A program made the position numbers and the translations under genes. Below the pieces are notes generated by a model that did no database searches, was not told where the DNA came from, and saw only the letters and a list, made by a program, of their open reading frames with translations. A stretch of DNA of 64,000 nt from Rhodoluna lacicola (lineage in GTDB: Bacteria; Actinomycetota; Actinomycetes; Actinomycetales; Microbacteriaceae). Positions 41,789 to 58,916 of this stretch are shown here, in pieces (position 1 is the stretch's first letter; every line of letters starts with the position of its first letter). Location of the stretch: positions 248,001 through 312,000 of the forward strand of contig NZ_CP007490.1 in assembly GCF_000699505.1 (NCBI RefSeq). The letters run 5' to 3'.

Positions 41789-42454
41789 TCACTTTTGGAA
41801 CAAACGAACCTTTTGAGTTGCCTTTACTTTCCTTGCCCAGATGATGATCAGCGGTGTGATGATGACGGTTGGGGCTAACCAGACAATCACCTTGAATGGG
41901 CTGGACGGATCAAGCCTCGGAACAAGTTGTTGAACCAGCACGGCCGTGACTGTTGCGATGGTTCCCCCAAGCATGTGGGAGAGGTGATTGGAGATTCTGG
42001 TTCCGAAGTCTTCCGCCTTTCCCCATCCTCGTAAATCCTGGACCGCGAACTGAAGCCCTATAGCACCAAACGCAACGAGAACCCACCCCATAGGTGAGCC
42101 CGTGAATACTTGTACGAGCCCGCTAAAAATCATCGCAATGCCGACAACCAACATGGCCCACTCAACATAAGGCTGGCGCGCCATGATGTATCGAGATTTG
42201 CGTCCGAAACGCCAGCCTGCGTATGCCATGTATGAAGAAAAGATGGCAACAAAGAACAACATGAGATTTGGACGAAGAATAGAAACAGGAATGGCTGTCG
42301 CGGCAACGGCCATCATGGACCAAAAGTAGGTTTTTCCTGCCAGGTTATGGTTCTTAGCACCTTTGCGAAATGAAATTGCAAAGATGGCCGAGAGCAATGC
42401 GAGCGAACCAGCAGCCACGTGTAGAAGAAGTAGAAACCTATTCAGTTGTTCCAT
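41789..42454 (-). CDS. DUF2306-like membrane protein
   Basis: This 221-residue protein is taken from the ATG at 42454. FLLLLHVAAGSLALLSAIFAI and KGAKNHNLAGKTYFWSMMA are the heme-protein-like LHVxxG and HxxxGxxYxWSM segments of DUF2306. Six or seven helices span the membrane. The function is unknown. It stands alone between two GCGGRGAAYA repeats, which marks it as possible island cargo. Confidence 0.7.
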   Translation of the reverse strand: MEQLNRFLLLLHVAAGSLALLSAIFAISFRKGAKNHNLAGKTYFWSMMAVAATAIPVSILRPNLMLFFVAIFSSYMAYAGWRFGRKSRYIMARQPYVEWAMLVVGIAMIFSGLVQVFTGSPMGWVLVAFGAIGLQFAVQDLRGWGKAEDFGTRISNHLSHMLGGTIATVTAVLVQQLVPRLDPSSPFKVIVWLAPTVIITPLIIIWARKVKATQKVRLFQK

Positions 42455-42494
42455 GAGGCTAAGCCTATTGATTTCGATAGTCCTGCTCGATGAC

Positions 42495-42523
42495 AAAACC
42501 CTCTGATTGCTCAGAGGGTTTTT
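42495..42523. terminator. Terminator-like hairpin without an upstream plus-strand gene
   Basis: AAAACCCTCTGA / TCAGAGGGTTTTT is a 12-bp stem with a 4-base loop and T- and A-runs on both sides. No plus-strand gene ends before it, and it lies upstream of the leftward DUF2306 gene. It may be what remains of a lost gene or of an island end. Confidence 0.7.
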
Positions 42524-42527
42524 CGCT

Positions 42528-42615
42528 GCGGAGAATAAGAGGAACGCACTACACGCCTACTTCTCAACGCTGACTTCAAAGTAGATTTGGGAAATCCGTT
42601 TCTACGCCATCTTTC
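42528..42615 (+). repeat. GCGGRGAAYA repeat, copy 2 (possible integration scar)
   Basis: GCGGAGAATAAGAGGAACGC follows the hairpin, and TTTCTACGCCAT lies about 70 bases downstream. It aligns with the repeat at 41689. It precedes the GDCCVxC gene. Confidence 0.5.
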
Positions 42616-42695: not shown

Positions 42696-42929
42696 ATGAC
42701 TGAAGGCAAAGGTGTCATCGCCGAAAGCACACTCACATGCCCAACCTGCGGTATAGGTGAGACATTGACCATGCCGACCGACTCTTGTATGTGGGCATGG
42801 ACTTGCCCAAGTTGCGAGAACCGTCAGACGCCTCTTGAAGGTGATTGTTGTGTTTTTTGTTCCTACGGAACGGTTCCCTGCCCTTCAATCCAGCAGGCTA
42901 AAACAAGCGGCTCTAAAGACTGTTGCTAG
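42696..42929 (+). CDS. GDCCVxC-domain small protein
   Basis: This 77-residue cysteine-rich protein has CPTCG, CPSCENRQTPLEGDCCVFCS and YGTVPCPSIQ, which match the GDCCVxC family. In some organisms members contain selenocysteine in place of a Cys. Members often occur with mercury or heavy-metal genes; the biochemical role is not settled. The many CxxC pairs suggest a zinc ribbon plus a redox or metal-binding Cys pair. A terminator follows, so it is monocistronic. Confidence 0.85.
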   Translation: MTEGKGVIAESTLTCPTCGIGETLTMPTDSCMWAWTCPSCENRQTPLEGDCCVFCSYGTVPCPSIQQAKTSGSKDCC

Positions 42930-42963: not shown

Positions 42964-43151
42964 CACAGCGGAGAATATGGGATTCGAACTTCTATCCCTG
43001 CTAGAGCATTGGGATGCGTTTCTGGTATTTCAAACGCATTGGGATACAGTTCGGATACTCCAAAGTGCACCGACATGCTTCAGAAAACTTTGATCAGCGT
43101 CGCCGCAAGCACATCAAACGGCACATTTGCTTGGGTAAGACAACGCCAGTT

Positions 43152-43476
43152 GATGAGATCAAGAATCAGAGGGAATTTTCAACAAGCTTTTACCTTGCCA
43201 GGGCGTAAGTTCACACAAGGCATAGTGCTCAAAAGCACAATCAATTTCGACTGCTATATTTTCGAACTCTTCATAGACAGAAATGAGTTTTCAGCCCTAA
43301 GCCTGGTGGATCATCACCAGCTAGCCACAGAGAGCTGGAGAAAATATTTAGTGAGCGAAGAAGTTGTTATTTATAGAAAGGAAGTTCTCAGTGAAAATGG
43401 CATCATCAGATCAGTGAGAAGTATCTCGAGAATTTTTGAACATTTAGGTGTGGATTTTGAGGTTGGCGATAAGTAA
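43152..43476 (+). pseudogene. 5'-truncated copy of the element's 130-aa ORF
   Basis: The last 93 or so codons match the intact protein at 56947-57339, with 15 or so replacements and the same end (FEHLGVDFEVGDK). The deletion removed the first 35 or so codons and the ribosome site. The frame is still open and an ATG at 43152 could in principle be used, but no ribosome site is seen. The longer frame reaching back to 42835 runs through the GDCCVxC gene and its terminator and is not a gene. Confidence 0.7.
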
Positions 43477-43796
43477 AACTAACCCCTAAAGTCATCGCTT
43501 GTTTATGCGACTGTCGTAAGAATATTTACGAGGTTTTTTGTTTTGTTTGTATTTACTCTGGCACTCTCGAAAGAAATTCACATTGCTCTAAAAACAACAA
43601 CAGCCGTGTATCCCAGGTCACGAAGGGGGCGGCCAATGTAGCACGGTACTCGCAAATGACAAGCGGTCTGATGGGGGCAACGAACCCAGAGATATCTCTA
43701 TAAAGCCCTTAACGATATCTACCACGGCATGAATATAGTTCCGTGGGTGATTGGTTAATTAGAAGCCTTCGGCCTTGTACGAGCCATATATGGCTT
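43477..43796 (+). repeat. Non-coding right arm of element copy A
   Basis: No gene is visible. The segment matches 57340-57654 and contains the 12-base palindrome AGAGATATCTCT (43688-43699) and a further GATATCT about 20 bases on. On the minus strand AGCCATATATGGCT next to the hemL stop could help end hemL transcription. Confidence 0.65.
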
Positions 43797-45113
43797 TTAA
43801 GAACGTGTCGCTTCCGCAGCCCGCTTCGCAGCTATGTTTGCTGCGTAGGAGATCTTTGCAAGGTCTTCATCGGTGTGAGCCCCGGATACAAACCACGCTT
43901 CAAATGCAGATGGTGGTAGCGAAACTCCGTTTTCCAACATCGCATGGAAGAAAGCGTTGAACGCCTGTGTGTTTTGTGTCTGGGCTTCGGCAAAGTTAGT
44001 TACTCGCTTATCTGTAAAGAAGAACGAGAACAAGTTGCCACCAAACTGTGCCTGATGAGCTACACCTTCTGTGGTCAGCGCATTTGAAATTATTTCGCCA
44101 ACTTGTTTTGCTCGCTGGTAGAGAGTTGCATAAAGAGCGGCGTCGCATAATTCGAGAGTTGCTAGACCGGCTGCTGTGGCAACTGGGTTTCCGCTCAAGG
44201 TTCCAGCCTGGTACACCGATCCAAGAGGAGCAAGTAGGTCCATGTGCTGGGCTTTTCCGGCTACCGCAGCAACCGGGTACCCGCCACCAATGACTTTCCC
44301 GAAGGTCAAGAGATCTGGAATCCAACCCTCGGTTTGGTTGACCATTGCCCACCAACCACCAGATGACACTCTGAAGCCGGTCATGACTTCATCAAGAATC
44401 ATCAGTGAACCGTGCTTACTTGTCACTTCGCGAATCTTGAGATTGAAATTGTTGATTGGCGGAACAACGCCCATGTTTGCCGGTGTTGGTTCAGTAATTA
44501 CCGCGGCAATTTCGTGACCACGAGATGCAAATAATGCCTCTAGCGCTGCGGCGTCGTTGTAAGGAAGAACGACAGTGTCTTGAGCTTGACCGGGGGTTAC
44601 GCCTGGAGAGTTTGGTAGACCAAGGGTTAGTACGCCTGAACCTGCCTGGACTAGAAGGGCATCACTGTGTCCGTGGTAACAACCAGCAAACTTAACAATC
44701 ACATTCCTGCTTGTTGCTGCTCTCGCTAGGCGGACTGCAGTCATGACCGCCTCGGTGCCCGATGAAACAAAACGCACGCGTTCTGCAATCGAAACCCGTT
44801 TGTTTATTTCTTCAGCCAATAAGACTTCGTTAGGGCTCGGTGCGCCAAATGATGCGGAGAGCGCTGCAGCCTCAGTTACTTTTGCAACTACGTAATCGTG
44901 AGCATGGCCAACAATCATTGGGCCCCATGATCCAACCAGGTCTACGTACTCGTTTCCATCTACATCCCAAATTCGAGAACCCTTGCCTCGAACAAAGTAC
45001 CTAGGGTTTCCACCGACGGCTGAAAATGCACGAACCGGTGAGCTTACTCCGCCAGGAATTACCTTCTGTGCGCGGGTGTGCCAAGTAATCGAATTACTAA
45101 TGTTCTGAGTCAT
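43797..45113 (-). CDS. hemL: Glutamate-1-semialdehyde 2,1-aminomutase
   Basis: This 438-residue PLP enzyme makes 5-aminolevulinate from glutamate 1-semialdehyde. Visible features are [32 protein letters not shown], the PLP Asp in [12 protein letters not shown] and the Schiff-base Lys in [15 protein letters not shown]. It is last in the leftward hemA-hemCD-hemB-hemL operon and its ATG overlaps the hemB stop (TAATG). Its stop codon touches element copy A. Confidence 0.96.
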
Positions 45114-46099
45114 TAAAGCGTCTTTCGTGCATAAAACATTTCAGCGAGCTCGAAAGCCCAGTAGGTGCAGATGACTGATGCGCCGGCACGTCTCACGGAT
45201 GCCACTGCCTCAAGAATTGCTCGCTCGCGATCTATTAACCCTTGCTCTGCGGCAACCTCAATCATGGCCATTTCACCGGAAACGATGTAGGCCGCAACTG
45301 GAACATCTACGCTCTGTGAAGTCTCATGGATAACATCTAGATAAGCGAGCGCGGGCTTAACCATCACGATGTCGGCACCTTGCTCTAGATCAAGACGAAC
45401 TTCGCGGATTGATTCCTTGAAATTGCGCGGGTCCTGCTGGTACGTTCTGCGATCGCCTTGAAGTTCTGACTCAACTGCATCTCTGAAAGGACCATAGAAG
45501 GCGCTGGCATATTTAGCTGAATAGGCCAAAATTGCAACTTCGGTAAAGCCGGCTTTATCCAACTCTGAGCGAACGTAGCCAACCTGACCGTCCATCATTC
45601 CGCTTGCGCCCAACATGTGAGCCCCCGCTTTAGCAAGCTCCACGGCCATTTTTCCGTAAGTAATCAGTGTGGCATCGTTATCTACGTTGCCTTTACCATC
45701 TAGCACGCCACAGTGCCCATGACTTGTGAATTCGTCTAGGCAGAGATCTGCCACAACAACGAGTTTGTCTCCAGCGCGTTTGCGCACAGCTGCAACAGCC
45801 TTGTTCAAAACTCCATCAGGCTTACATGCCGCAGTGCCAAGCTCGTCTCGTTCGGCAGGAATTCCAAAAAGCATGATGCCACCAATGGCCGCATTAATTG
45901 CACGATCCACTTCGGCAAGAAGAGAAGCTTCATTGTTTTGAAAAACACCAGGCAACCCCTTGATGGGTTTCGGCTCGGCGAGGTTTTCCTTGATGAAGGT
46001 TGGGTAAATCAACTGACTTGGAAGGACCACGGTTTCAGCAACAAGGTTTCGCATCGCCTGGCTGGCGCGCAAGCGTCGTGGTCGTTCAGTCAAACTCAT
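45113..46099 (-). CDS. hemB: Porphobilinogen synthase (5-aminolevulinate dehydratase)
   Basis: This 328-residue enzyme condenses two 5-aminolevulinates to porphobilinogen. The metal-binding segment [15 protein letters not shown], first Lys region [16 protein letters not shown], and Schiff-base Lys in [11 protein letters not shown] are all present. It starts with ATG 13 bases after hemCD. Confidence 0.96.
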
Positions 46100-46112
46100 A
46101 AATCTCCAGGGA

Positions 46113-47789
46113 TCAGTTCATGTTTGGGCTGGTTACTGTGGCAACCAGTGAATCGGGGGTGGTTTCGGAGGTCATCGCGACCCGTGGGAACCCAAGTTTC
46201 CTCGTTTGTTCAAGTGTGGCATTACCAGTTACTAAAACCAAGGCGAGCACATCTTTAGGACTGATGAAATTGGCCACTGCCCTTGCGGCGCTAGGCGAGC
46301 GAAGAACTAAAACATCTATCTCGCCTTGTTTTAGAGCTGAAATTGACAAAGGGACATTGGGTACTGTCTCGGTGGTGTACACAACCTCAGTAATAAGTTC
46401 AACACCGGAAGTGACAACGGCATCTTGCAGGGTCTTCATTGCAATATTCGACGCTGGCAAAATAACTTGTTTTGGCATATGTTTCAAAATGGCAGTGCTT
46501 AACGCCCCGGCGTTTGAATCCTCAGCCAACAGTACTTCCTGCACACCAAGTGACTTTATTTCGGCGGCGCTTCGTTCACCAATCGCAGCAAACTTCAAGT
46601 TTGGGTTGGAGATAGCAGCTTTGAAGTTATCAATCCCAATTTGCTCAGCAAAGAACCTCACGGAATTGATTGATGTGATTACTAACCAAGTTCCAGGCTC
46701 TGCACTTCGCAGTGCCTCTAGCATTCTGTCTACGCCCGCTGGATTGTTGAATTTTGAAATCTTTAGATACGGGTCGCAGACAACCTTAAAACCAGCTGAT
46801 TTGAAGGCGGCTTCATCGAGCTCGTTGTCAGTGGCGCGTACCAACAAAACGGATTTCTCTCGCGGTGTACCTATCTTTTGGCCCAGTTCCGTTTGCATTA
46901 ATTGCTCAGCAATTTCCAAACCCAATGCCAATGATTGTGCTTTATTTGAGCTGGCCGCGTCTAGTGAAAGCGAAACACGTTCATGCCAATCAGTTTCGTT
47001 ATCCGAAAGCTCCGCGGTCAGAGTCAGTCTTCCATCGGTTAGCTCAGCGTGAGCCCCGATTGCAGTAGTACACGAGGCCGAGATGCCTCGAAGCACTGCT
47101 CGCTCCGCGGTAACAATTAGCTCAGTTTCAGCATGGTTGACCTTTTGTAGCTCCGCAATTAAATCAAGATCACCGGAACGGCACTCAATTGCAAGTGCAC
47201 CTTGCGCCGGGGCCGGCAACAACTCTGCGTCTGTAAAAAACCACTTATTGACTTCACCTAAACCAATTCGGTTAAGCCCAGCGGCAGCCAAAATGGTTGC
47301 ATCAAAATCACCGTCTTGAACTTTTTTCAGTCGGGTATCAATGTTCCCGCGAATTGGTTTGATCTCTAGGTCTGGCCTTAGGTGCCGGATTCTTGCTGCA
47401 CGTCGGGGAGATGAAGTACCAACTACAGCACCTGTAGCGAGCTCAGACAAAGTTTGATTATCTCGACTAATCAAGATGTCTCGGTGGTCTTCGCGTCTTG
47501 GTATTGCCGCCAGAGTAATGCCAGGCATTGGAGCAGACGGTAAATCTTTAAAAGAATGAACGATGTAATCAACCTCGCCCGCCAGAAGCGCATCACGCAG
47601 AGCAGATACAAATACCCCAGGTCGCTTTGGAGCAAAAAGATTGCTTGATGGATTGTCGCCTTCAGTTTTTATGAAAACTAATTCACTGGCAAGCCCTGTT
47701 GTTGTTTGAATTTGATCGGCGATCATGCCTGATTGTGTCGTGGCAAGCAAGCTGCCGCGAGTGCCGAGTTTGAGAGTGCGACTAGGCAT
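46113..47789 (-). CDS. hemC: Fused hydroxymethylbilane synthase / uroporphyrinogen-III synthase
   Basis: This is a 558-residue fusion. Residues 1-305 or so are porphobilinogen deaminase (LGTRGSLLATTQS, HSFKDLP, GTSSPRRAAR, RGNIDTRL, PAPAQGALAIE), with the dipyrromethane Cys in SASCTTAIG. Residues about 315-558 are a HemD-like domain (VLLVRATDNELDEA, ITSINSVRFFAE, FAAIGERSAAEI, VLPASNIAM-like and LRSPSAARAV). One polypeptide therefore performs both the polymerisation and the ring closure with D-ring inversion. It overlaps hemA by 8 bases. Annotators may call it hemCD. Confidence 0.93.
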   Translation of the reverse strand: MPSRTLKLGTRGSLLATTQSGMIADQIQTTTGLASELVFIKTEGDNPSSNLFAPKRPGVFVSALRDALLAGEVDYIVHSFKDLPSAPMPGITLAAIPRREDHRDILISRDNQTLSELATGAVVGTSSPRRAARIRHLRPDLEIKPIRGNIDTRLKKVQDGDFDATILAAAGLNRIGLGEVNKWFFTDAELLPAPAQGALAIECRSGDLDLIAELQKVNHAETELIVTAERAVLRGISASCTTAIGAHAELTDGRLTLTAELSDNETDWHERVSLSLDAASSNKAQSLALGLEIAEQLMQTELGQKIGTPREKSVLLVRATDNELDEAAFKSAGFKVVCDPYLKISKFNNPAGVDRMLEALRSAEPGTWLVITSINSVRFFAEQIGIDNFKAAISNPNLKFAAIGERSAAEIKSLGVQEVLLAEDSNAGALSTAILKHMPKQVILPASNIAMKTLQDAVVTSGVELITEVVYTTETVPNVPLSISALKQGEIDVLVLRSPSAARAVANFISPKDVLALVLVTGNATLEQTRKLGFPRVAMTSETTPDSLVATVTSPNMN

Positions 47790-49050
47790 CAGCCACGCGG
47801 TTTATTTCGATTCCGAAGATCATTCGCAAAGCATCCATGAACTGCTTTTCGTTACCTTCTTTGGCAGAGGTTTTTGCAGCCAGCGTTGGAACGTGCATGT
47901 ATGTTGATGTCACCCGCTTCAAGCTACGAAGAACTTCCTCGGCCATTTCATCGCCTGATTTATTTCTAACGCGTTGAACTTCCTCTTCAATGAGTTTTGC
48001 GATGTGTTCACGCATAGCGACAACCATTGGGTCTGCTACGCGAGCGATAGCTTCATTTTCGAAGTCACTTACCTGATGACGGACAATTTCTTGAGCACGC
48101 AAGATTGCTTCGCTGTGCTCACTTGGCGTGTTCAGGCGGATAAAGTCCAAATCCATGATGGATACCCCGGTGAGGTCATAGACGGGCGGCGCTACATCTG
48201 CAGAGAGAGCCACATCGATAATGCGCAGTTCCTTGGGTTGAATTTCCAGCACAGCCTTAGCCAATTTGAAATCAATCATGTGACCACTGCCGCCACTGGC
48301 CGTAACAGTAAAGTCACAGGCGGCCATCGTTTGAGTTAGTTCAGATTTACGCACCGGGGTTGCGCCACGGCCTTCGCTGAATTCTTCTGCACGACCACTA
48401 GATGAATAGATGAAAACTTGTTCCACGTTTTCGCGCTGAAGTGCAGCTACAACTACGCGGGCGTAAGCACCGGTTCCCATAACCAAGACCTTGTTTCCTT
48501 GGATAGGGCCAAATTTATCTTTGTGCAGGCTTAGAGCGGCGGTAAATACTGAGCGCCCGGCCTCGCCAAGCCCAGTTTCACTTGAAACCTTTTTGGCTAC
48601 CTGCGCGGCTGATTGAAATAGTTTTTCAATTTCGCTTGAGGTATGGGATTCTGACTGAGCCACCTGAAGTCCGCGCTTTACTTGCCCGGAGATCTCGCCT
48701 TCGCCAACAATCATCGATTCCAGACCGGAAGTTACGGAATACAGGTGTTGCACTGCGGCTGAACCATAGCTCACACGCAGGAGTTTGCTGCAGTAGTCCC
48801 GGTCGAGGCCAGTTATATCTGAAACCACACCGATGACGTTTTCAATTGCACTGTGAAACCGATCGGTGTCTAGATAGACCTCAAAACGATTGCAAGTACC
48901 AATTGCAACACCCCCATTGATGCCACTTTCCTCTTTTGAAAGCGAGAAAAGCTTGTTGCGAATTGAATCGGTGTGACGTTCAAGATTTTCTAGTTCACTC
49001 AACGGGACGTCGTTGTAGTTTGCACCAAGTAATACGAGAGTCACAGTCAT
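47782..49050 (-). CDS. hemA: Glutamyl-tRNA reductase
   Basis: This 422-residue enzyme makes the committed step of the C5 heme pathway, reducing glutamyl-tRNA to glutamate 1-semialdehyde with NADPH. The catalytic Cys is in GTCNRFEVYLD, GEGEISGQVKRGL and VMGTGAYARVVVAAL (NADPH domain) follow, and the C-terminal dimerisation helix is present. It opens the leftward operon and diverges from hemE across 40 bases. Confidence 0.95.
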   Translation of the reverse strand: MTVTLVLLGANYNDVPLSELENLERHTDSIRNKLFSLSKEESGINGGVAIGTCNRFEVYLDTDRFHSAIENVIGVVSDITGLDRDYCSKLLRVSYGSAAVQHLYSVTSGLESMIVGEGEISGQVKRGLQVAQSESHTSSEIEKLFQSAAQVAKKVSSETGLGEAGRSVFTAALSLHKDKFGPIQGNKVLVMGTGAYARVVVAALQRENVEQVFIYSSSGRAEEFSEGRGATPVRKSELTQTMAACDFTVTASGGSGHMIDFKLAKAVLEIQPKELRIIDVALSADVAPPVYDLTGVSIMDLDFIRLNTPSEHSEAILRAQEIVRHQVSDFENEAIARVADPMVVAMREHIAKLIEEEVQRVRNKSGDEMAEEVLRSLKRVTSTYMHVPTLAAKTSAKEGNEKQFMDALRMIFGIEINRVADA

Positions 49051-49090
49051 ATTGTAGGGTTACCCGCCTATGCCATGTAATGATTAAGTT
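49051..49090. promoter_or_regulatory. 40-bp divergent hemA/hemE promoter gap
   Basis: Both heme operons start from this gap, so their promoters must overlap each other or the 5' coding ends. TACAAT on the minus strand next to the hemA ATG and TAATGATTAAG on the plus strand are A/T-rich -10 candidates. No clear repeat operator is seen. Confidence 0.45.
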
Positions 49091-50149
49091 GTGAATCTAC
49101 CAAGCGCCCACCCTTTAGTTACGGGGAAAACCACAAACTCTGCATTGGTGCGCTCCTATCTTGGTGAAAAGACTGAGACGAAGGCAATCTGGCTAATGCG
49201 CCAGGCTGGCAGATCACTACCGGAATATCGCAAGCTTCGCGAAGGCGTAGCCATGTTGGATTCTTGTTTGCGACCTGACCTTGCCGCCGAAATCACTTTG
49301 CAGCCAATCCGACGCCACAAGGTTGACGCAGCCATTTTCTTTAGCGACATCGTTGTCCCTCTTAAGTTGGCCGGTGTGGATGTTGAGATTGCGCCCGGTA
49401 TTGGACCGCTAATCGACAAACCAATTCGTACTCGTGCAGACTTTGCAAGACTTGAAGAGCTTGATCCAAATAGCATGGGACCAATCCGCGAGGCGATTCA
49501 GCTCATAATCGCGGAGCTTGGCGAGACCCCGCTCATTGGTTTTGGCGGAGCCCCATTCACTCTGGCTTCGTACCTTATCGAAGGTGGACCTTCAAAAGAA
49601 TTGCCAGTTAGCCGGGCGATGATGGCCAACGACCCTGATCTTTGGAATGACATTCTTGCCTGGACTGCTCGTGTCACCGCAACGTTTATTCGCGGGCAGG
49701 TCTTAGCGGGTGCAAGCGCCTTGCAGTTATTTGACTCATGGGCGGGAAGACTGGGGCTTGAGGACTACAGGAAGTTTGCCGCTCCACATTCCAAAAACGT
49801 CATGGCTGCCTTGGAAGATCTTCCGGTTTCTCGTGTGCACTTTGGGGTTCATACCCGTGAACTTTTGGTTGATATGTATGGTGTGGGCGCAACCGTAATG
49901 GGCGTTGACTACGAAACTCCACTAGACGAAGCCAACCGCATCCTTGGCGGCACTGTGCCACTTCAAGGAAACATCAATCCAGGTTTCATGTTCAAGCCAT
50001 GGGATGAACTTGAAGCGCACGTAAGAGACGTCCTTGAACGAGGAAAATCAGCACCGGGTCACGTGGTAAACCTTGGCCATGGAGTACCACCTGAGACTGA
50101 CCCAGACGTAATCACCAAGATGGTTGCCCTGGTCCATGGTGAAATTTAG
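49091..50149 (+). CDS. hemE: Uroporphyrinogen decarboxylase
   Basis: This 352-residue enzyme decarboxylates uroporphyrinogen III to coproporphyrinogen III. IWLMRQAGRSLPEYRKLR and ALQLFDSWAGRLG are family signatures; FFSDIVVPLKLAGVDVEI and the late HGVPPETDPD segment complete it. The start is GTG. It is first in hemE-hemY-hemQ-hemH. Confidence 0.96.
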   Translation: MNLPSAHPLVTGKTTNSALVRSYLGEKTETKAIWLMRQAGRSLPEYRKLREGVAMLDSCLRPDLAAEITLQPIRRHKVDAAIFFSDIVVPLKLAGVDVEIAPGIGPLIDKPIRTRADFARLEELDPNSMGPIREAIQLIIAELGETPLIGFGGAPFTLASYLIEGGPSKELPVSRAMMANDPDLWNDILAWTARVTATFIRGQVLAGASALQLFDSWAGRLGLEDYRKFAAPHSKNVMAALEDLPVSRVHFGVHTRELLVDMYGVGATVMGVDYETPLDEANRILGGTVPLQGNINPGFMFKPWDELEAHVRDVLERGKSAPGHVVNLGHGVPPETDPDVITKMVALVHGEI

Positions 50150-50154
50150 ACTCA

Positions 50155-51504
50155 ATGCCTTTGACCGCCTCAGAAATTAATTCTGGCTCTAATTCAAAGA
50201 GTGCCGCCGTAGTTGGCGCAGGCATTGCGGGTTTAGTTGCCGCAAAACGTCTTGTTGATTCAGGCTTTCAAGTGGACGTATTCGAATCAACCGACCGAGT
50301 CGGTGGCCTGATTTCTGCGGCACAGCTTGGTAACTATCTAATCGACATCGGTGCCGAATCGTTTGCGGTTGCAAAAAACACTGTGCCCGAGCTTTGTGCC
50401 GAGTTGGGTATTGAAAATTTAATAGTTCAACCTCAGCGTAGTGATGCTCGCATTTTGGGAGTTCGCGGCGTGCACACAATTCCCCATGGTGTCCTAGGTA
50501 TTCCAAGCGATCTAGATGCACCCGAAGTTGCAGAGGCTGTTGGCATAGAAGCTGTTGCGCTAGCAAAACAATTGGATTCAAAACCATGGGTTGCTGACGC
50601 CGACATAAGCATTGGTGATTTAGTCGAAGTAAGACTAGGTAAAGCATTCGTCGATAACTTTTTGACCCCTGTAATTGCCGGAGTGCATTCGTCGGACCCT
50701 CAAAAACTCGAAGTCGCCACAGTGTCACCTAGTTTGTTAGCAAAGGGCAGTGAGACCGGTTCGTTGGTTGCAGCGGTAAAGGCAATCAGAAGTTCGGCTG
50801 CTCGTCCGGGTGCGGCAGTTGCTTCAATTTCTGGAGGTATGCACAAGTTAGTCACCGAGCTCGAGTCATATCTCATCAATGCTGGAGTCGTTATCCATCT
50901 AAATAAAAAAATCGAATCACTTGCCGACCTTGCGTCTTATGATCGTGTGGTTTTGGCCGCTGGCATTGAAGGCGCAGCCCAAGTTATGGCCGATAATTCC
51001 AACGACCTCGCCAAAGATCTTCAACAGGATTTAGCATCTTTCAAGGGAGTAGATGCTGCCGTGGTTGCTCTTTTAGTGGAATCTGAACAGCTGAATGAAT
51101 TCCCGCGCGGAAGTGGAGTTTTAGTCTCGGCTGAGGTTTCAGATCTGGGTGCGAAGGCTGCAACTCACGTGAACGCTAAGTGGGCCTGGGTGAATAACTT
51201 GCTGCCAAAAAATCAACACATATTGCGATTCTCATTTGGCAGAAATGGGGTCCTCCCGGCTGAAGTGGAGTCTTTGGCCGAACTTGCCACTCGCGACGCA
51301 GCGAGAATTTTTGGAATTTCAGACGTTCGAGTTATTGAAACCTTTACTAAAAAATGGCCCCACGCCTTGATTCAAGCGACACCAGGACACTCGGCTATCG
51401 TTAAGCGTGTCAAGTCGCGCATCGCTGCAGATTCGAGACTGACAATCATCGGTGCTGGGCTCGGGGGAAACGGCATAACTGGAATTCTGAGCGTAGAAAG
51501 ATGA
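50155..51504 (+). CDS. hemY: Coproporphyrinogen III oxidase (HemY/CgoX, FAD)
   Basis: This 449-residue flavoprotein starts with VVGAGIAGLVAAKRLVDSG (FAD site), then DRVGGLISAAQLGNYLIDIGAE. In actinobacteria this family oxidises coproporphyrinogen III to coproporphyrin III rather than protoporphyrinogen, which fits the presence of hemQ. It ends with the FAD-contacting TIIGAGLGGNGITG. It starts 5 bases after hemE and overlaps hemQ by 4 bases. Confidence 0.92.
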   Translation: MPLTASEINSGSNSKSAAVVGAGIAGLVAAKRLVDSGFQVDVFESTDRVGGLISAAQLGNYLIDIGAESFAVAKNTVPELCAELGIENLIVQPQRSDARILGVRGVHTIPHGVLGIPSDLDAPEVAEAVGIEAVALAKQLDSKPWVADADISIGDLVEVRLGKAFVDNFLTPVIAGVHSSDPQKLEVATVSPSLLAKGSETGSLVAAVKAIRSSAARPGAAVASISGGMHKLVTELESYLINAGVVIHLNKKIESLADLASYDRVVLAAGIEGAAQVMADNSNDLAKDLQQDLASFKGVDAAVVALLVESEQLNEFPRGSGVLVSAEVSDLGAKAATHVNAKWAWVNNLLPKNQHILRFSFGRNGVLPAEVESLAELATRDAARIFGISDVRVIETFTKKWPHALIQATPGHSAIVKRVKSRIAADSRLTIIGAGLGGNGITGILSVER

Positions 51505-52217
51505 ATGAAATGACTGAAGTAAGTCAAACTGCGGGTCGCCCTACACCTGCTGAAATCAACGAAACGATTCACTACACAACATTTCTGGCATTCCAGCTAG
51601 ATGACCGGATCGCAAATTCGGCTGCCGCAACTAAAAGCTATAAAGCATGGTTGGTAGAGTGCGCAAGCGCTGGGGTAACGGTTCGAGGCGCATACGACCT
51701 AACCGCCCTGCGAGCTGACTCAGCACTCTTGCTATGGTTGCACGCCGATACAGCTGAACAATTGCAAAAAGCCACGCACGCTTTTTCTCGCACCAAATTT
51801 GGCTCACACTTTTCACCAACCTGGACCGGAATGGGCATTCACCGACCAGCGGAGTTCAACCGTTCACACGTTCCGGCTTTCATGCAGGGTTATGCACCGA
51901 AGACTTGGCTTTGCTTTTACCCGTTTGTGCGCTCACACGAGTGGTACCTATTGCCAGAGGAAGAGCGCTCTGAAATGTTGCGCGAGCATGGCGTTGCTGG
52001 ACACAAATTCAAAGGTGTTCAAAGCAATACGGTTTCATCATTTGCACTTGGTGACTACGAATGGCTACTAGCTCTGGAGTCCGAGGACCTCCACGAAATT
52101 GTAGACATGATGCGCGAACTAAGGAATACCGCAGCACGCCGTCACGTTAGAGAAGAAGTGCCGTTCTTTACCGGCAGCATCATCGACCCAACCCAGATCG
52201 GAGAGACTTTCGCATGA
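51501..52217 (+). CDS. hemQ: Coproheme decarboxylase (HemQ/ChdC)
   Basis: This 238-residue chlorite-dismutase-like enzyme converts Fe-coproporphyrin III to heme b using peroxide. FYPFVRSHEWYLLPEEER carries the region of the catalytic Tyr, and MLREHGVAGHKFKG supplies the proximal His loop; FALGDYEWLLALESEDLHEI is also typical. It overlaps both hemY and hemH by 4 bases (ATGA), so the last three steps are translationally coupled. Confidence 0.93.
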   Translation: MNEMTEVSQTAGRPTPAEINETIHYTTFLAFQLDDRIANSAAATKSYKAWLVECASAGVTVRGAYDLTALRADSALLLWLHADTAEQLQKATHAFSRTKFGSHFSPTWTGMGIHRPAEFNRSHVPAFMQGYAPKTWLCFYPFVRSHEWYLLPEEERSEMLREHGVAGHKFKGVQSNTVSSFALGDYEWLLALESEDLHEIVDMMRELRNTAARRHVREEVPFFTGSIIDPTQIGETFA

Positions 52218-53317
52218 AGTACGACGCAATTCTTCTAACCTCATTCGGTGGCCCTGAGGGTCCAGAAGAAGTAATGCCATATCTTGAACGAGTAACCGCA
52301 GGGCGCGGTGTTCCGCGCGAGCGTCTAGAAGAGGTGTCACACCACTACCTAGCTCTTGGCGGAGTCAGCCCAATCAACGAACAAAATCGTGCACTTTTAG
52401 CTGCCATGCGTAGCCATTTCCCGGAGCGGGGAATCGACATCCCCATTTACTGGGGCAACCGTAATTCAGAACCATTTTTTGCCGATGTACTAAAGCAGAT
52501 GTATGCAGATGGTCACCGAAACGTGTTGGCGTGGGTTACTAGTGCCTACTCGTCTTATTCAGGCTGTCGTCAATACCGTGAAAACTTGGCCGCTGCCCTT
52601 ACCGAGGCTGACCTTGAAGGCAAGATGACAATAGACAAAGTTCGTCATTTTTTTGATCACCCTGGATTCATCACACCGATAGCAGATGACCTGGCTGCAA
52701 AAATTAAATCAATGCAGGATCTTGGTCTGACGTCAAACCAGATTTCCATCATGTTCGCGACCCACTCGATTCCAACTGCTATGGGCGTAAGTTCAGGTCC
52801 TGAAGCCCGTCGTGATGAATTTGCCCAGCTTGCAGGAGAAGGCGGCGCTTATGCTGCTCAACACTTGGCTGCTGCAGAAGTAACCATGAAGAAGGTCGCC
52901 GATAAAATCTCCGGGTCACTGCCCGACTGGTCCCTGGTTTACCAGTCTCGATCAGGATCACCATCCGTGCCGTGGCTTGAGCCAGATGTAAACGACGCAA
53001 TCAACGATGCCGCTGACTCAGGCACTAAGGGCGTCATCATTGTTCCGATTGGTTTTGTGAGCGATCACGTTGAAGTTATTTGGGACCTCGACAACGAAGC
53101 TAAAGATACCGCGGAAGCTCGAAGCCTAGAATTTGCTCGAGTCGTCACTGCTGGTGTTGCACCTGAATTTGTTGACGGAATTGCTGATCTTATTCAAGAG
53201 CGTTTAAGTAACGCAGAGAAAAAAGCTCTCTCGAAACTTGGTCCCTGGGTTGATGCATGTGCCGTCGGTTGTTGCCCAAACCTTCGCAAAGATCTTCCGG
53301 TCGTAGCAGAAGCCTAA
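52214..53317 (+). CDS. hemH: Coproporphyrin ferrochelatase (HemH/CpfC)
   Basis: This 367-residue enzyme inserts iron into coproporphyrin III. LLTSFGGPEGPEEVMPYL is the family start, FATHSIP holds the metal-binding His, and GFVSDHVEVIWDLDNEA the conserved Glu region. Four cysteines match the [2Fe-2S] ligands of actinobacterial ferrochelatases: one in SSYSGCRQYRE and three in the tail CAVGCC. It is last in the rightward heme operon. Confidence 0.95.
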   Translation: MKYDAILLTSFGGPEGPEEVMPYLERVTAGRGVPRERLEEVSHHYLALGGVSPINEQNRALLAAMRSHFPERGIDIPIYWGNRNSEPFFADVLKQMYADGHRNVLAWVTSAYSSYSGCRQYRENLAAALTEADLEGKMTIDKVRHFFDHPGFITPIADDLAAKIKSMQDLGLTSNQISIMFATHSIPTAMGVSSGPEARRDEFAQLAGEGGAYAAQHLAAAEVTMKKVADKISGSLPDWSLVYQSRSGSPSVPWLEPDVNDAINDAADSGTKGVIIVPIGFVSDHVEVIWDLDNEAKDTAEARSLEFARVVTAGVAPEFVDGIADLIQERLSNAEKKALSKLGPWVDACAVGCCPNLRKDLPVVAEA

Positions 53318-53342
53318 GCGTTACTAATTTTTAGATTGATGT

Positions 53343-53576
53343 TCTAAAGAGTGCACGCCACGCACCGGTGTTTTCGAAGACCCGGTTACCGGAAGTCTTA
53401 ATGCGAGCGTGGCACAGTGGTTCGTACGAACCGGGGTTGTTGACGGCAACTACAAGGCGTCACAGGGCGCCAAGCTTGGACGTGCTGGAAAAATTCAAAT
53501 ACCAGTTGATGATTCAGGTTCTGTTTGGGTTGGTGGTGCAGCAATAACCTGCATCAGTGGCCAGATCGAAATTTAA
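53343..53576 (+). pseudogene. PhzF-family C-terminal fragment
   Basis: The frame ending at 53576 reads TGVFEDPVTGSLNASVAQWF, then a segment with SQGAKLGRAGKIQI, and ends VWVGGAAITCISGQIEI, the C-terminal half of PhzF-like isomerases. An in-frame stop lies just upstream, and the N-terminal half is missing. It sits between hemH and element copy B, so it is probably a truncated leftover from an insertion or deletion there. Confidence 0.75.
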
Positions 53577-54036
53577 ATCGCGCCTTCGGCCACTGGAGGT
53601 TTATCTGCGACTGGCGTGGCTTCGGCCAACGTGTCGCTGAAATTCCGATAACTTCGAAATTTCAACGCGTCACGCTCGGGCCTCGCGGAGAATATGGGAT
53701 TCGAACTTCTATCCCTGCTCGATCTTAGGGATACGTTTCTGGTATTTCAAGCACATTGGGATACAGTTCGGACACTCCAAAATGCATAAAGATACCTCAG
53801 AAAACTTTGATCAGCGTCGCCGCAAGCACATCAAACGGCACATTAGCTTGCATGAAGCATCGCCGAGAGATGAGATCAAGAATCCAAGGTTTCAACTTTG
53901 CGTAGTACAACGTCTACGTGATTCCACGTGTTCCAAATAGACCTTTAAATCGGATGGTAAAATTTAACTAAGCAGCAAGCAATTGCTAGCGAAATGACAT
54001 AAACGACACTCCTTGTAACTAACTATGGAAGGCGTT
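53577..54036 (+). other. Gene-free left arm of element copy B and flank
   Basis: This stretch holds about 110 bases of unassigned sequence, the site-like repeat at 53685, and about 350 bases leading to the HTH gene. Bases 53685-53880 match copy A. A short minus-strand frame (NVPFDVLAATLIKVF and stop) is kept in both copies but has no recognisable family. Confidence 0.6.
53685..53719 (-). other. Candidate attachment site (tRNA 3'-end-like), identical to 42970-43004
   Basis: The 35 bases from GCGGAGAATATGGGATTCGA onward are identical in both element copies and mark their sharp left borders. On the minus strand they read TTCGAATCCC...ATTCTCCGC, like a T-loop and acceptor 3' strand of a tRNA, the usual integrase target. 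A complete tRNA is not present. Confidence 0.55.
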
Positions 54037-54342
54037 ATGTCAACGTTAAATAATCATCCCGATTTCGTATCTGTCGAACGGGCCGCCGAGATGCTCTCGG
54101 TATCCACCAAAACAATCCGCAACTGGATTAAGTCTGGTGACCTGCCAGCCTTTGAAGCCGGACCCAAATTGCTTCGAATAAGTGTTTTAGATATCCGAGC
54201 ATTTTGTAAACCGGTAAGCCGGGCCAATTGGAAGCCACGTGTAACGTCTCGCACAGATCTAACGGCAAAGACTCGTGAAAACTATGGTCACGCAAAAATG
54301 CGTGAAGTGCTCGGGCGCGGGCCATTCGATTTTGGTCCGTAA
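54037..54342 (+). CDS. Excisionase-like helix-turn-helix protein
   Basis: The first 60 of these 101 residues (DFVSVERAAEMLSVSTKTIR, NWIKSGDLPAF, LRISVLDIRAF) are the MerR-like winged helix of excisionase-family (HTH_17) DNA-binding proteins. The rest is basic and unassigned. The ATG at 54037 is preferred since GGAAGG lies just before it; an in-frame ATG at 54025 has no ribosome site. It could direct excision or regulate the primase gene, from which a terminator separates it. Confidence 0.8.
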   Translation: MSTLNNHPDFVSVERAAEMLSVSTKTIRNWIKSGDLPAFEAGPKLLRISVLDIRAFCKPVSRANWKPRVTSRTDLTAKTRENYGHAKMREVLGRGPFDFGP

Positions 54343-54383
54343 TTCCCAGAGCTTTGTAAGTTCACGCCCAAGCTTAAAAAAAG
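54107..54383 (+). terminator. Terminator between HTH and primase genes
   Basis: GACCTGG / CCAGGTC with a 6-base loop, followed by CTTTT, occupies 54383-54407 (the end coordinate should be read as 54407). It insulates the HTH gene from the primase gene. Confidence 0.8.
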
Positions 54384-54447
54384 ACCTGGCGATCACCAGG
54401 TCCTTTTAAAAATCTCTAACAACTAACTATTTAAGAAAGAAATCTAC

Positions 54448-56823
54448 ATGTCTAATTTAACACCAAAACCCGACACCGAGTGGAACATCCTCAGCCACTA
54501 CGAACAAGCGGCGTACCTGGCAAATCAAAAGTTGAGCGTGATGCCCGTCCATGGAGTGGTCAATGGGCTGTGTACATGCTCCCAATTTCATTACGACTTG
54601 AAGGATGTAGGCAAGCACCCCGCATCAGCAGGTGGTCAAAAGGACGCCACAACAGATCAAGGACAAGTTGAAAAATGGTGGGGTATGAATCCAGATTGGA
54701 ACCTGGCAATCCACTGTGTTCGATGCGGCCTTGTTGTTTTTGATTTTGACCCGAGAAACGGCTCCGAGGACTCTTACTGGCGTCTGTGGGATGCTACGGA
54801 ATCAATGATTGAAGACACGTGGATCGTGGACACCGGTGTCTATAACGTCAAAGGTAAAACTCTGCGTGGGTTCCACATTTACTTTCGTCTTGAGCAAGAC
54901 GTTGCACTTGTCGGTGACATGAAAAAGCTTGGTTATCCCGGGGTGGATGTGAAGCGCAATGGCTACGTCATGGCGGCTGGTTCTAAGCACGTGTCTGGGG
55001 TCGAGTACTCCTGGCGTAAAGGCCATGCGCCTTGGGAAATCCCGCTAGCCGTAATCCCCCAAGGGCTACTTGAGACGGTGATCAAACGAGGCGGCGGATC
55101 AGGTAGCAGCAGAGTGAATCGCATCACCGATTTAGAGGGTTGGGATGAAAGATGGGAATCAGTTAAGTCGGCTGATGTGAAGGCAACTCCATATGCGCAG
55201 GCCGCATTGAAGCGATGTGTCGCTGAGCTAAAAGGTATGCGCCGCGGAGATAGCCGCAACAATGCAATGAATGCAATGGCATTTTCATTAGGTCACTTGA
55301 TTGGCGGGGGTCAAATCTCGCTATCAAAATGTAGAGACGAGCTGATGGCTGCCGCTGCCGAAAGTTATGGCGGCGATTGGACAATGAAAAAAAGCAATAC
55401 CGAGTCGGTGCTGCGTGAGTATGGCGGTGGATTTGAAGAAGGGGCGCTTAGCCCCCTATACCCTCGTCAACTCACCGAGGATGCAGTAGAAGAAATCAAA
55501 GCGGCGGTTATTCCTTTTGCAGAAGCGGACAACGATCGCCTCTTGGAGCTTGTTCAGACAGGCTTTCTAAAGAGTTCCCGTCTTCTTTCGGAATCTCTAC
55601 TCGAAGCCGTTAAGTTGCTTGGCCCTATCAAGGTAGGACCTGGTAAAGAGCTGCTCTATTACAAGGATGGCTACTGGCAGACCGAAGCTGAAGACGAAAT
55701 CACTAGAAGGGTCTCGCTCTTGATGGGTGAAGACTTTTTGACTCGATACGTTTCTGAGGTTTCCAAGCTGCTCAAGGTTCGGAGTCAAAAGATCGTGAAA
55801 ATGGGCCCAAAGGAATTTTTGAACCTTGAAAATGGCATGCTGAATTGGAGGACCGGTCTCTTTTCACCGCATGATCCAAAATTCAATTCCACGGTAAGAA
55901 TAAATTGTGCCTGGGACCCATACGCTACTTGCCCGAATGTGGATGCCTGGATGAGCGACATGATTTATGACGATCTCATAGACCTAATTTGGGAGATCAT
56001 CGGCGTCTGTCTTTACACGGGTATGGGATTTCAGCGAGCAATCTTTTTTGACGGCTCTGGTCGTAATGGTAAGGGCACGCTCATCCGTCTTATTTCTAAG
56101 TTGATCCCGGAACTTTTCATGGCAAATGTTGAGTTCCAGCGTTTCGGAAGCGACAAATTTGCAACATCCCAGCTATTTCGAAAGATCCTCAATGTTGTCG
56201 GTGACCTTTCGGCGAGTGCTATGAAAGACAGTTCAACTTTCAAGATGCTTACCGGCGAGGACTCTATCCAAGCCGAGAGAAAATATGGGCAGCCATTCAA
56301 CTTTCAAAATGAAGCGACACTCCTATTTTCTGCAAATAAGATGCCAATAGGTTCAGATGAAACGCGTGGATATGCATCACGTTTCTTGATCGTCCCGTTC
56401 ACCAAAAAGACTCTGCGGGACGATGAGATCGATGCAGCGTTGGAAGACCGCCTATTCGCAGAACTCCCAGGTGTACTAGTCAAAGCAGTCGCAGGTCTTA
56501 AGCGAGCAATGGAGCGAAAAGGTTTTGCCGATGTCGAACGCTGCCGTATTGCCCACCAGAAGTACATGGGCCGCATCGATCATTTTCAAAACTGGGCAGA
56601 TGAAAGCTGCGAATTCACAGGGCTTCGAGCCGACGTGGTCCCTAAAACGGGGATGTGGTCCAGCTACCAATTCTTCTGCATCACAAATGAGATTGATGGC
56701 CTAAAGCGTCTCGAATTTTACGAGGAATATGATCGCCGATTCGGTCGAATTAGCCAGCAAGTTGAACACGAAACAATGATGTTTAACCAGGTTCGCCTAA
56801 AGCCTTCTTTGATGAATTTCTAA
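54448..56823 (+). CDS. Prim-Pol / SF3 primase-helicase (phage/plasmid P4 type)
   Basis: In this 791-residue protein, residues about 20-220 form a bifunctional primase/polymerase domain (KHPASAGGQKDATTD, catalytic DFDPRNG, RGFHIYFR). A linker and D5_N-type region follow, then an SF3 helicase with Walker A DGSGRNGKGTLIRLI, Walker B NVVGDLS and sensor LLFSANKMP. Such proteins start replication of plasmids, P4-like satellites and integrated elements. The gene marks copy B as a replicating element. It is entirely deleted from copy A. Confidence 0.9.
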   Translation: MSNLTPKPDTEWNILSHYEQAAYLANQKLSVMPVHGVVNGLCTCSQFHYDLKDVGKHPASAGGQKDATTDQGQVEKWWGMNPDWNLAIHCVRCGLVVFDFDPRNGSEDSYWRLWDATESMIEDTWIVDTGVYNVKGKTLRGFHIYFRLEQDVALVGDMKKLGYPGVDVKRNGYVMAAGSKHVSGVEYSWRKGHAPWEIPLAVIPQGLLETVIKRGGGSGSSRVNRITDLEGWDERWESVKSADVKATPYAQAALKRCVAELKGMRRGDSRNNAMNAMAFSLGHLIGGGQISLSKCRDELMAAAAESYGGDWTMKKSNTESVLREYGGGFEEGALSPLYPRQLTEDAVEEIKAAVIPFAEADNDRLLELVQTGFLKSSRLLSESLLEAVKLLGPIKVGPGKELLYYKDGYWQTEAEDEITRRVSLLMGEDFLTRYVSEVSKLLKVRSQKIVKMGPKEFLNLENGMLNWRTGLFSPHDPKFNSTVRINCAWDPYATCPNVDAWMSDMIYDDLIDLIWEIIGVCLYTGMGFQRAIFFDGSGRNGKGTLIRLISKLIPELFMANVEFQRFGSDKFATSQLFRKILNVVGDLSASAMKDSSTFKMLTGEDSIQAERKYGQPFNFQNEATLLFSANKMPIGSDETRGYASRFLIVPFTKKTLRDDEIDAALEDRLFAELPGVLVKAVAGLKRAMERKGFADVERCRIAHQKYMGRIDHFQNWADESCEFTGLRADVVPKTGMWSSYQFFCITNEIDGLKRLEFYEEYDRRFGRISQQVEHETMMFNQVRLKPSLMNF

Positions 56824-56946
56824 CCGTGGAACCGTTACTTTTTTCTAAAAAGTTTTATCAAGTGATACATCGATATTTATTTTTTTATTAATAAATAGAG
56901 TTTTCCCAAAAAACATCGGATTTACGGTGAATAGTTAGGAGTTTTA
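56824..56946 (+). other. Very A/T-rich gap, possible replication or promoter region
   Basis: This 123-base gap is strongly A/T-rich, with T and A runs around 56877-56900. It ends with TTAGGAG before the next ATG. An origin unwinding region for the adjacent primase-helicase is possible, but no iterons are seen here. Confidence 0.35.
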
Positions 56947-57339
56947 ATGGACCATCACATTGAAAGTTCATTTATCGGATCGGTAGATGCTATCAGAGCT
57001 CTCGCGGAAGTGATTCAGGATCAAGCAATTAGAGGGAATTTGCAACTCGCCTTTACCTTGCCAGGGCATAAATTCACACAAGGCTTAGTGCTCAAAAGCA
57101 CAATCAATTTTGACTGCTATATTTTCGAGATCTTTATCTCTAGGAGTGAGTTTTCAGTCCTAAGGCTGCCGGATCACCATCAGCTTGCCTCCGAGCACTG
57201 GAGAAAATACTCAGTTAACGGAGATGTTGTTATTTATAGAAAGGAGGTGCTAAGTGAAAATGGCATTCTCAGATCAGTGAGAAGCATCTCTAGAATTTTT
57301 GAACATTTAGGTGTGGATTTTGAAGTTGGCGATAAGTAA
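56947..57339 (+). CDS. Element-encoded 130-aa protein of unknown function
   Basis: The start ATG is at 56947 after TTAGGAG. The protein is soluble, with an N-terminal helix (VDAIRALAEVIQDQ) and a beta-rich core (TLPGHKFTQGLVLKSTINFD; GDVVIYRKEVLSENG) ending in IFEHLGVDFEVGDK. I do not recognise the family. Its C-terminal 93 residues are repeated in copy A with about 84% identity, and the ends are identical, so the core seems constrained. A regulator or packaging/immunity role is possible but unsupported. Confidence 0.75.
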   Translation: MDHHIESSFIGSVDAIRALAEVIQDQAIRGNLQLAFTLPGHKFTQGLVLKSTINFDCYIFEIFISRSEFSVLRLPDHHQLASEHWRKYSVNGDVVIYRKEVLSENGILRSVRSISRIFEHLGVDFEVGDK

Positions 57340-57654
57340 GACTAATCCTCAAAGTCATGGCTTGTTTATGCGACTGGCGCAAGAATATTTACGAAGTTTT
57401 TGTTTTGTATGTATTTACTCTGGCGCTCTCGAAACAAATTCACATAAATCTAAAAACATCAACAGCAGTGTATCCCGGATCATGCACTGGGTAGCCAATG
57501 TAGCATGGTATTCACTAATAACAAGCGCTCTGGGGGAGCAATGAACCCAGAGATATCTCTATAAAGCCTTTAATGATATCTACAACGGCATCAATAGAGC
57601 GCCGAGGGTGATTGGTTAATTAGAAACCTAAGGCCCTCTAGGGACCTTCTATGG
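57340..57654 (+). repeat. Conserved non-coding right arm of element copy B
   Basis: This segment has no credible gene. It aligns with 43477-43796 and keeps AGAGATATCTCT (57549-57560) followed by ATAAAGCC and a second GATATCT. Similarity ends near TATGGCT. The conservation suggests a protein-binding or end-recognition site. On the minus strand an imperfect stem (AAGGTCCCT / AGGGCCTT) is near the right border. Confidence 0.6.
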
Positions 57655-57778
57655 CTATTGGGGCTCAAAGCGCGTTAGGCAGTAAACAGAAAACTTGTAG
57701 TCGTTTGATTATCGCCCTATCGATACCCGACCAGGGATCAAAAATGCAGATTCTAGGCAGGCCAAGTCTGCTCTTATC

Positions 57779-58862: not shown

Positions 58863-58895
58863 TCACCATCTCCTTTTCTTTCATTATTGCTAATA

Positions 58896-58912
58896 ATACC
58901 CCAGGGGGGTAT
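58896..58912. promoter_or_regulatory. CsoR-type copper operator
   Basis: ATACCCC-AGG-GGGGTAT is a perfect 7+3+7 palindrome of the kind bound by actinobacterial CsoR. It lies between the SRPBCC and ATPase genes and ends 4 bases before the ATPase ATG. TAATAAT just upstream may be the -10 box, and the G-run of the operator could also serve as ribosome site. Regulation by the csoR gene at 61306 is expected. Confidence 0.8.
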
Positions 58913-58916
58913 ATTC

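Follow-up and report, generated by a model that had tools for sequence, protein, structure and literature searches.

A tRNA-Ser(GGA) integration hotspot and the probable island origin of the heme gene cluster of Rhodoluna lacicola

Genomic islands that target tRNA genes by means of tyrosine recombinases are a general class of mobile DNA. Actinomycete integrative and conjugative elements (AICEs) use a tRNA site and combine an excisionase and a Prim-Pol module with FtsK/TraB-type transfer, and P4-like and PICI-like (phage-inducible chromosomal island) phage satellites have a P4-family primase-helicase and a small excisionase-like helix-turn-helix (HTH) protein. Most aerobic cells require heme, whose synthesis is generally regarded as a core function. 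Here, we analyse a 64,000-nucleotide stretch (the window) of the R. lacicola genome (G000; one contig, 1,430,433 bp), in which the complete pathway from Glu-tRNA to heme lies between two copies, A and B, of an element whose left ends are the 3′ end of tRNA-Ser(GGA). Coordinates are window positions unless marked as genome or preceded by a genome code. We consider the heme cluster to be tRNA-site island cargo at least in a second Rhodoluna genome (G153) and in Aurantimicrobium, and most likely in R. lacicola. In that genome it was probably carried by an older island, since decayed, lying 3′ of tRNA-Ser(GGA), one case of a wider pattern, with later rearrangement blurring the order of events.

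The locus shares with tRNA-targeted islands a duplicated tRNA 3′ end, an integrase beside the tRNA, several islands per site, variable cargo and a lower GC content at third codon positions (GC3). It differs in that the cargo is a complete core cofactor pathway, the integrase is truncated or absent, and the same cargo is found at three tRNAs in two genera. Copy B resembles an AICE in its tRNA site, excisionase-like protein and Prim-Pol replication module, so that replication and Xis functions are both represented, but no FtsK/TraB-type transfer gene was found among the open reading frames (ORFs) scanned in the island that B opens, and the integrase is a C-terminal piece only. With P4-like and PICI satellites it shares the P4-family primase-helicase (TIGR01613) and the small excisionase-like HTH protein; it may differ in that Pfam recognised no capsid, packaging or phage-interference gene in the ORFs scanned, the PHROG search covering the three ORFs of B and the ORF over A. 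Kim et al. reportedly described heme auxotrophy of aquatic Actinobacteria in 2021. Several freshwater bacteria, Rhodoluna among them, have been reported as heme auxotrophs (PMC12381374); the consulted part of that article deals with the same genus lacking heme synthesis and discusses neither a mobile cassette nor a tRNA site. While tRNA islands are known, the matches listed in the open-access literature searched (titles and abstract openings) included no description of a tRNA-site heme cassette for these bacteria or of recurrent cargo comprising a complete heme pathway.

The heme cluster and element copies A and B

The eight heme enzymes encoded between A and B match NCBIfam or Pfam families, and the heme locus is laid out as follows.

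42968..42989, minus strand: att_A, 22-bp 3′ end of tRNA-Ser(GGA), left end of A
42968..43798, plus strand: element copy A, internally deleted relic (repeat comparison, genome search)
about 43164-43476: p130 remnant in copy A
43797..45113, minus strand: hemL
45113..46099, minus strand: hemB
46113..47789, minus strand: hemC-hemD fusion
47782..49050, minus strand: hemA
49091..50149, plus strand: hemE
50155..51504, plus strand: hemG/hemY, protoporphyrinogen oxidase family
51501..52217, plus strand: hemQ
52214..53317, plus strand: hemH
53373..53576, plus strand: C-terminal fragment of a phzF-like gene
53599..53690: flank F, native downstream flank of tRNA-Ser (92 bp; 90% identity with the intact tRNA's flank in the relative G169)
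53685..53706, minus strand: att_B, 22-bp 3′ end of tRNA-Ser(GGA), left end of B
53685..57659, plus strand: element copy B, opening an island that reaches the intact tRNA-Ser (genome 316408) beyond the window
54025..54342, plus strand: HTH_17 excisionase-like protein of copy B
54448..56823, plus strand: Prim-Pol / D5_N / DUF5906 P4-family primase-helicase of copy B (TIGR01613 above cut-off)
56947..57339, plus strand: p130, orphan 130-residue protein of copy B

The hemG/hemY product is presumably the coproporphyrinogen oxidase CgoX, because HemQ is present. A full-length phzF adjoins tRNA-Ser in G153.

An earlier note, made from the sequence of this stretch, had described two copies of one element in the same orientation flanking a complete heme pathway, and both the repeat comparison and the family matches uphold the arrangement. 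The copies form direct repeats at 42968-43172/53685-53889 (86% identity, spacing 10,717 bp) and 43164-43463/57027-57326 (86%, spacing 13,863 bp), in agreement with the arm spacings of 10.7 and 13.9 kb given there, with more repeat blocks of 83-84% identity up to 43798/57659; the longest exact runs are 48 and 35 bp in the left arms and 32 bp in the right arms. The boundaries were equally accurate: copy A terminates on the hemL stop codon (43797-43799), and copy B begins 368 bases past the end of hemH (53317), where about 370 had been stated. That this is a single element in two copies is true of the number of copies, but A is an internally deleted relic, and there is no integrase among the three ORFs of B. 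A consists of a 205-bp left arm fused to the right arm, its p130 lacks the first 24 residues, and as a query against the whole genome it matched only itself and the two arms of B.

Between A and B, p130 has a dN of 0.089 and a dS of 0.466 (NG86), with dN/dS of 0.19 by NG86 and 0.29 by YN00. Because these differences are mostly synonymous, it seems that A and B were still functional while they diverged and that A decayed only later, and we rejected a local neutral duplication of B as the source of A. Neither is A a solo copy of the long-terminal-repeat type, since both element arms are joined in it, as expected of an internal deletion. The p130 protein has no Pfam, PHROG or PADLOC match, and among 150 genomes of the family, a set to which this genus contributed only three, it was found in its own alone; its single-sequence fold was unusable (mean predicted local distance difference test score, pLDDT, 39.8). 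In 271 loci from other genomes (3.5 Mb, partly overlapping), a search repeated with the window as control, xis, primase and p130 had no match at E 1e-3, and the 18 left-arm matches were all to the 22-bp tRNA end alone. Nothing was found in viral_contigs with the primase, p130, HemH or the att-arm pattern, HemA had no match in genome_contigs, and no close relative of the copy B primase turned up in IMG/VR; its best phage and plasmid matches were below 60% identity and covered less than 80% of the protein.

The tRNA-Ser(GGA) hotspot and the B island

The left ends of A and B are an identical 22-bp 3′ end of tRNA-Ser(GGA). Allowing up to 2 mismatches, this pattern matched three times in the whole 1.43-Mb genome, in A, in B and in the intact gene (genome 316408-316495, 4.4 kb past the window end), the 22 bp being identical in all three, and a control pattern matched nowhere (0). 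The duplicated tRNA 3′ end that marks the far end of an island as a direct repeat is thus present, 22 bp long and in three copies. Nearly every one of 13 relatives has a different gene as the closest neighbour of tRNA-Ser on this side: some sites, such as those of G169, G166 and G205, look empty, with conserved chromosomal genes close by, and others carry genes not found near the R. lacicola site. Longer integrases (473 and 501 residues) adjoin the same tRNA-Ser in G092 and G196, with other genes behind them. Because site contents vary among relatives, and because both left ends are the same tRNA 3′ end, we read the region as a tRNA integration hotspot.

The 92 bp left of and into tRNA-Ser in G169 match the 92 bp ending in att_B at 90%. 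This alignment shows the B island (genome 301685 to 316410) to be a clean insertion. An empty site with matching flanks in a close relative therefore exists for the B island, and less cleanly, across flank F, for the heme segment. The ORF of the B island that adjoins tRNA-Ser covers positions 89-170 of the 172 in the Phage_integrase profile, a C-terminal piece; no intact integrase encoded by the B island itself was found, and the genome elsewhere was not searched for integrases by family. A copper or heavy-metal gene set (metal-sensitive repressor, P-type ATPase, multicopper oxidase and DUF305 gene) occupies genome 309306-315229 as cargo of this island. The cargo genes within the window, and the features at the other edge of the hotspot, are:

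41789..42496, minus strand: gene D, DUF2306-like membrane protein (DUF2306 match below the Pfam cut-off), left boundary of the hotspot
42696..42929, plus strand: 77-residue Cys-rich ORF (from its translation), which we take to be GDCCVxC-like
58821..61304, plus strand: heavy-metal P-type ATPase, B-island cargo
61306..61596, plus strand: metal-sensitive transcriptional repressor
61625..63577, minus strand: second P-type ATPase; a multicopper oxidase gene then spans the window end, with a DUF305 gene beyond

Gene D lies about 140 bp from tRNA-Ser in G169 and 6 kb from it in G092. A possible degenerate fourth copy of the tRNA-Ser 3′ end may be seen at 42528..42549 on the minus strand, a weak match (first 10 of 22 positions exact, 16 of 22 overall by eye). 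In G196 (contig C27, 6035-10431) the same hotspot holds an MmeI-type restriction-modification enzyme together with an integrase.

Composition also sets the heme genes apart in R. lacicola. Their GC3 is 0.457 (n = 8) compared with 0.532 in 58 flanking genes (p 1e-5), and it is also lower than that of 106 background genes (p 4e-4). The heme genes of G153 are likewise lower than their surroundings (p 0.007), and those of G010 and G092 match theirs (p 0.79 and 0.20).

tRNA-end brackets around heme cassettes in relatives

In G153 (G153:C1:1340177-1350686) the heme cassette, which includes a TetR-like gene (named by sequence alone), lies between an intact tRNA-Arg(ACG) and a 41-bp copy of its 3′ end (40/41) 10.4 kb away. 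In six genomes whose inferred genus is Aurantimicrobium (G128, G395, G059, G291, G244 and G366), the cassette has an intact tRNA-Phe(GAA) at one end and, at the other, a repeat of that tRNA's 3′ end, which is 43-45 bp long in five genomes and 21-23 bp at 95% in G395; the bracket spans 10.3 kb, or 11.4 kb in G395. The R. lacicola bracket consists of two tRNA-Ser fragments, att_A and att_B, with the intact gene past the B island. A tRNA 3′-end bracket therefore surrounds 8 of 23 heme loci, at Ser-GGA, Arg-ACG and Phe-GAA, and two more clusters are adjacent to a tRNA without a repeat: that of G313, from another genus, 1.3 kb from tRNA-Ser(GGA) beside dnaX, and that of MWH-Ta3, 56 bp from tRNA-Phe. 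All 10 of these clusters are on the 3′ side of the tRNA. Because the orientation of the cluster toward the tRNA differs (hemH first in R. lacicola and Aurantimicrobium, hemL first in G153 and G313), the clusters at tRNA-Ser in R. lacicola, at tRNA-Ser in G313, at tRNA-Arg and at tRNA-Phe appear to have arrived separately.

These counts come from three scans with 38, 35 and 14 different 3′ ends, representing the 7 or 8 tRNA types present in the fetched loci, so that the scans would overlook copies of any other tRNA; heme loci from beyond the genus were picked from the best HemA/HemH matches, and large genomes contribute only five. As a control, 718 kb of loci lacking heme genes, drawn mostly around the tRNA-Ser hotspot, which should favour fragments, contained two, one in the tRNA-Ser hotspot of G193 and one in R. 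lacicola. The latter (G000:C1:71345-71370) repeats 26 bp of the tRNA-Ser(TGA) 3′ end at a distance of 145 bp from the intact gene and is possibly a remnant of another integration. The other 13 heme loci are those of G010, G092, G331, MAG_YR3 and nine further genomes (G013, G030, G095, G269, G135, G063, G034, G283 and G361), of which G063, G034 and G283 showed only 6 or 7 of the 8 heme genes. No tRNA was found in the stretches around the last nine, and we rejected tRNA linkage as an old, family-wide trait; in G331 the nearest tRNA is a Gln tRNA only, 8.5 kb off and on the wrong side of the cluster. Fragment scans revealed no tRNA bracket around the heme genes of G010 and G092. Two tRNA-Arg(ACG) 3′-end fragments (G010:C1:71452-71495 and 73940-73959) lie downstream of the intact gene (57244-57317) in G010, probably an island array, with the heme cluster 12 kb beyond.

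For R. lacicola, we propose that a member of the A/B family that carried a tyrosine recombinase inserted itself at the 3′ end of tRNA-Ser, giving att_A, and that the heme genes were already, or later became, cargo of this first element. It would then have lost its replication genes and its integrase end, the latter being replaced by the piece comprising phzF and flank, perhaps via natural transformation. A second copy, B, with copper cargo, would later have integrated cleanly at the same tRNA to give att_B. More widely, a roughly 10-kb cassette, hemH-Q-Y-E / A-CD-B-L, often with a TetR-like gene, may have been set down repeatedly 3′ of tRNA genes, between tRNA-end repeats, in aquatic Microbacteriaceae, such that heme synthesis would be gained or lost as a block. 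The att repeats, the clean insertion of B, the nearly empty site of G169, the patchy distribution, the differing chromosomal places, the two origins and the tRNA-end brackets at three tRNAs are observed, and the order of events at this locus, the acting recombinase and continued movement of the cassette are inferred. A bolder form, which we put forward tentatively and at slightly less than even weight, is that in planktonic Microbacteriaceae the complete heme pathway is a nomadic cassette of about 10 kb without a recombinase of its own, repeatedly captured by tRNA-targeting elements and moving within and between genera (e.g. from an Aurantimicrobium-like donor to Rhodoluna at tRNA-Arg), with single-step switches of heme dependence.

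Heme genes across the genus and alternative origins

The genus comparison set comprised 67 genomes, 22 of them at least 90% complete and at most 5% contaminated. HemH (E 1e-30) was found in four of the 67, R. lacicola, G010, G092 and G153, which are also four of the 22 high-quality genomes and exactly the four single-contig genomes in the set. HemL (E 1e-60) was found in eight, although the match in G203 (35% identity) is probably another aminotransferase. Three genomes (G166, G168 and G205) carry hemA-CD-B-L without a HemH match, in conserved order near tRNA-Phe/Asp/Glu; this partial cluster possibly supplies uroporphyrinogen for non-heme use. In a FastTree phylogeny of eight core proteins G169 is sister to R. 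lacicola (support 1.0), followed by G166 (1.0), and G010 and G092 form a pair (1.0) that G168 joins at only 0.71. A further close strain, Rhodoluna sp. KACHI23 (AP026911), has 97.3% average nucleotide identity to R. lacicola MWH-Ta8 and is smaller by 21.5 kb. The dnaX gene, on the other side of tRNA-Ser, is present in 53 of the 67 genomes; the heme cluster of G010, G092 and G153 is on the dnaX contig but far from dnaX, and the partial cluster of G166, G168 and G205 is on a different contig from it.

The comparison with relatives that the earlier note proposed gives a mixed outcome. The nearest relative, G169 (96% complete), lacks the heme block, with no HemL or HemH match anywhere, and its site is nearly empty, with gene D beside tRNA-Ser; the three other HemH genomes carry the cluster elsewhere, and no genome examined has heme genes at this locus without element copies. 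The mobility suggested for the heme locus is accordingly supported through the tRNA-site islands, but not by way of recombination between A and B.

The phylogeny of the heme proteins divides the genus. Those of R. lacicola, G010 and G092 form one clade, also in an earlier tree that included hemC, and G153 groups with Aurantimicrobium minutum. In a concatenated tree without hemC (hemL, B, A, E, G and Q; 18 rows, 2185 columns, quick IQ-TREE), G153 falls inside the Aurantimicrobium group (Shimodaira-Hasegawa-like approximate likelihood ratio test, 99 and 100), and a tree holding it with the other three Rhodoluna was rejected (approximately unbiased test, p 1.2e-18). The heme clusters of the genus occupy three positions and have two origins.

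Several observations weigh against an island origin in R. lacicola, or against the wider pattern. Flank F and the phzF fragment sit between hemH and att_B, so that the heme genes lie outside the clean B insertion and simple tandem accretion fails. No integrase is present in the bracketed cassettes, and that of the B island is a C-terminal piece; as no intact integrase was seen in the units with brackets, the cassette either no longer moves or relies on recombinases acting in trans. The six Aurantimicrobium brackets are probably one event, and 15 of the 23 heme loci are unbracketed, including those of the nearest heme-bearing relatives, G010 and G092. The G010/G092 and G153 clusters are at different spots but both in one variable region beyond the tRNA-Ser/tRNA-Arg group, and because they share this region, the matching part of which in R. 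lacicola has no heme genes, their positions are not fully independent. The G153 hemH alone groups with Rhodoluna (support 92), and its cassette is therefore a hybrid. Finally, divergence between R. lacicola and G010, taken relative to Aurantimicrobium, has a median ratio of 0.30 in seven heme genes and 0.29 in five core genes (p 1.0; hemC was dropped by a length filter, and one core gene had an unusually distant Aurantimicrobium match), and differences at four-fold sites are higher in heme than in core genes (0.657 and 0.553). Since heme divergence equals core divergence, there is no sign of recent transfer, which we rejected on both measures; the data appear compatible with old vertical descent and relocation.

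The alternative that fares best, though we find it somewhat doubtful as a full account, is exchange of hotspot contents by natural transformation, in which recombination in core genes on either side of tRNA-Ser swaps what lies between, the heme block itself neither excising nor integrating and the tRNA-end copies belonging to other past elements. It accounts for the native flank F between hemH and att_B and for the differing genes beside tRNA-Ser among relatives, and natural transformation has been shown for R. lacicola in the consulted part of a published study (PMC11577799), making it a good candidate for part of the traffic. Exchange alone would, however, leave the tight brackets at tRNA-Arg and tRNA-Phe unexplained, and as it overlaps in part with the island reading, the weights we give the two are not exclusive.

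Vertical descent with relocation and repeated loss seems unlikely to us. In that history a type I cluster, ancestral to the clade of R. lacicola and G010/G092, would have been lost in G169, G166, G168, G170, G205 and G206 and would simply have come to lie beside tRNA-Ser in R. lacicola, with A inserted next to it by chance. The equal divergence ratios, saturated synonymous sites, the single clade of R. lacicola, G010 and G092 heme genes and the lack of HemH in most of the genus fit such a history, while the different chromosomal position from G010/G092, the GC3 below that of surrounding genes, the att repeats on both sides and the recurrence of tRNA brackets at other tRNAs do not.

Least probable by far is the route of the earlier note, gain or loss of the heme locus in one step by homologous recombination between A and B: the copies are direct, with exact runs of 48, 35 and 32 bp, and exchange in either arm pair would remove all heme genes, but about 15% divergence separates the arms, searches of the other loci retrieved did not find the element, and G169, the sole nearly empty site examined base by base, has neither an element arm nor a recombinant junction, which rejects it as a product of such an exchange. 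Nor are the arms of A and B the general mechanism, the element having turned up neither in the 271 other loci nor in viral contigs by pattern search; the bracket that recurs in relatives is a tRNA 3′-end repeat, at other tRNAs and without this element.

Under the island reading, a bracketed, transferable cassette would provide a concrete one-step route to heme dependence and back, and would make the origin and reversibility of that dependence addressable by strain comparison. The coincidence of single-contig genomes with HemH genomes (4 of 67) may bear on culturing. Taken together, the comparison suggests that heme synthesis has come and gone as a package in R. lacicola and related lake bacteria.

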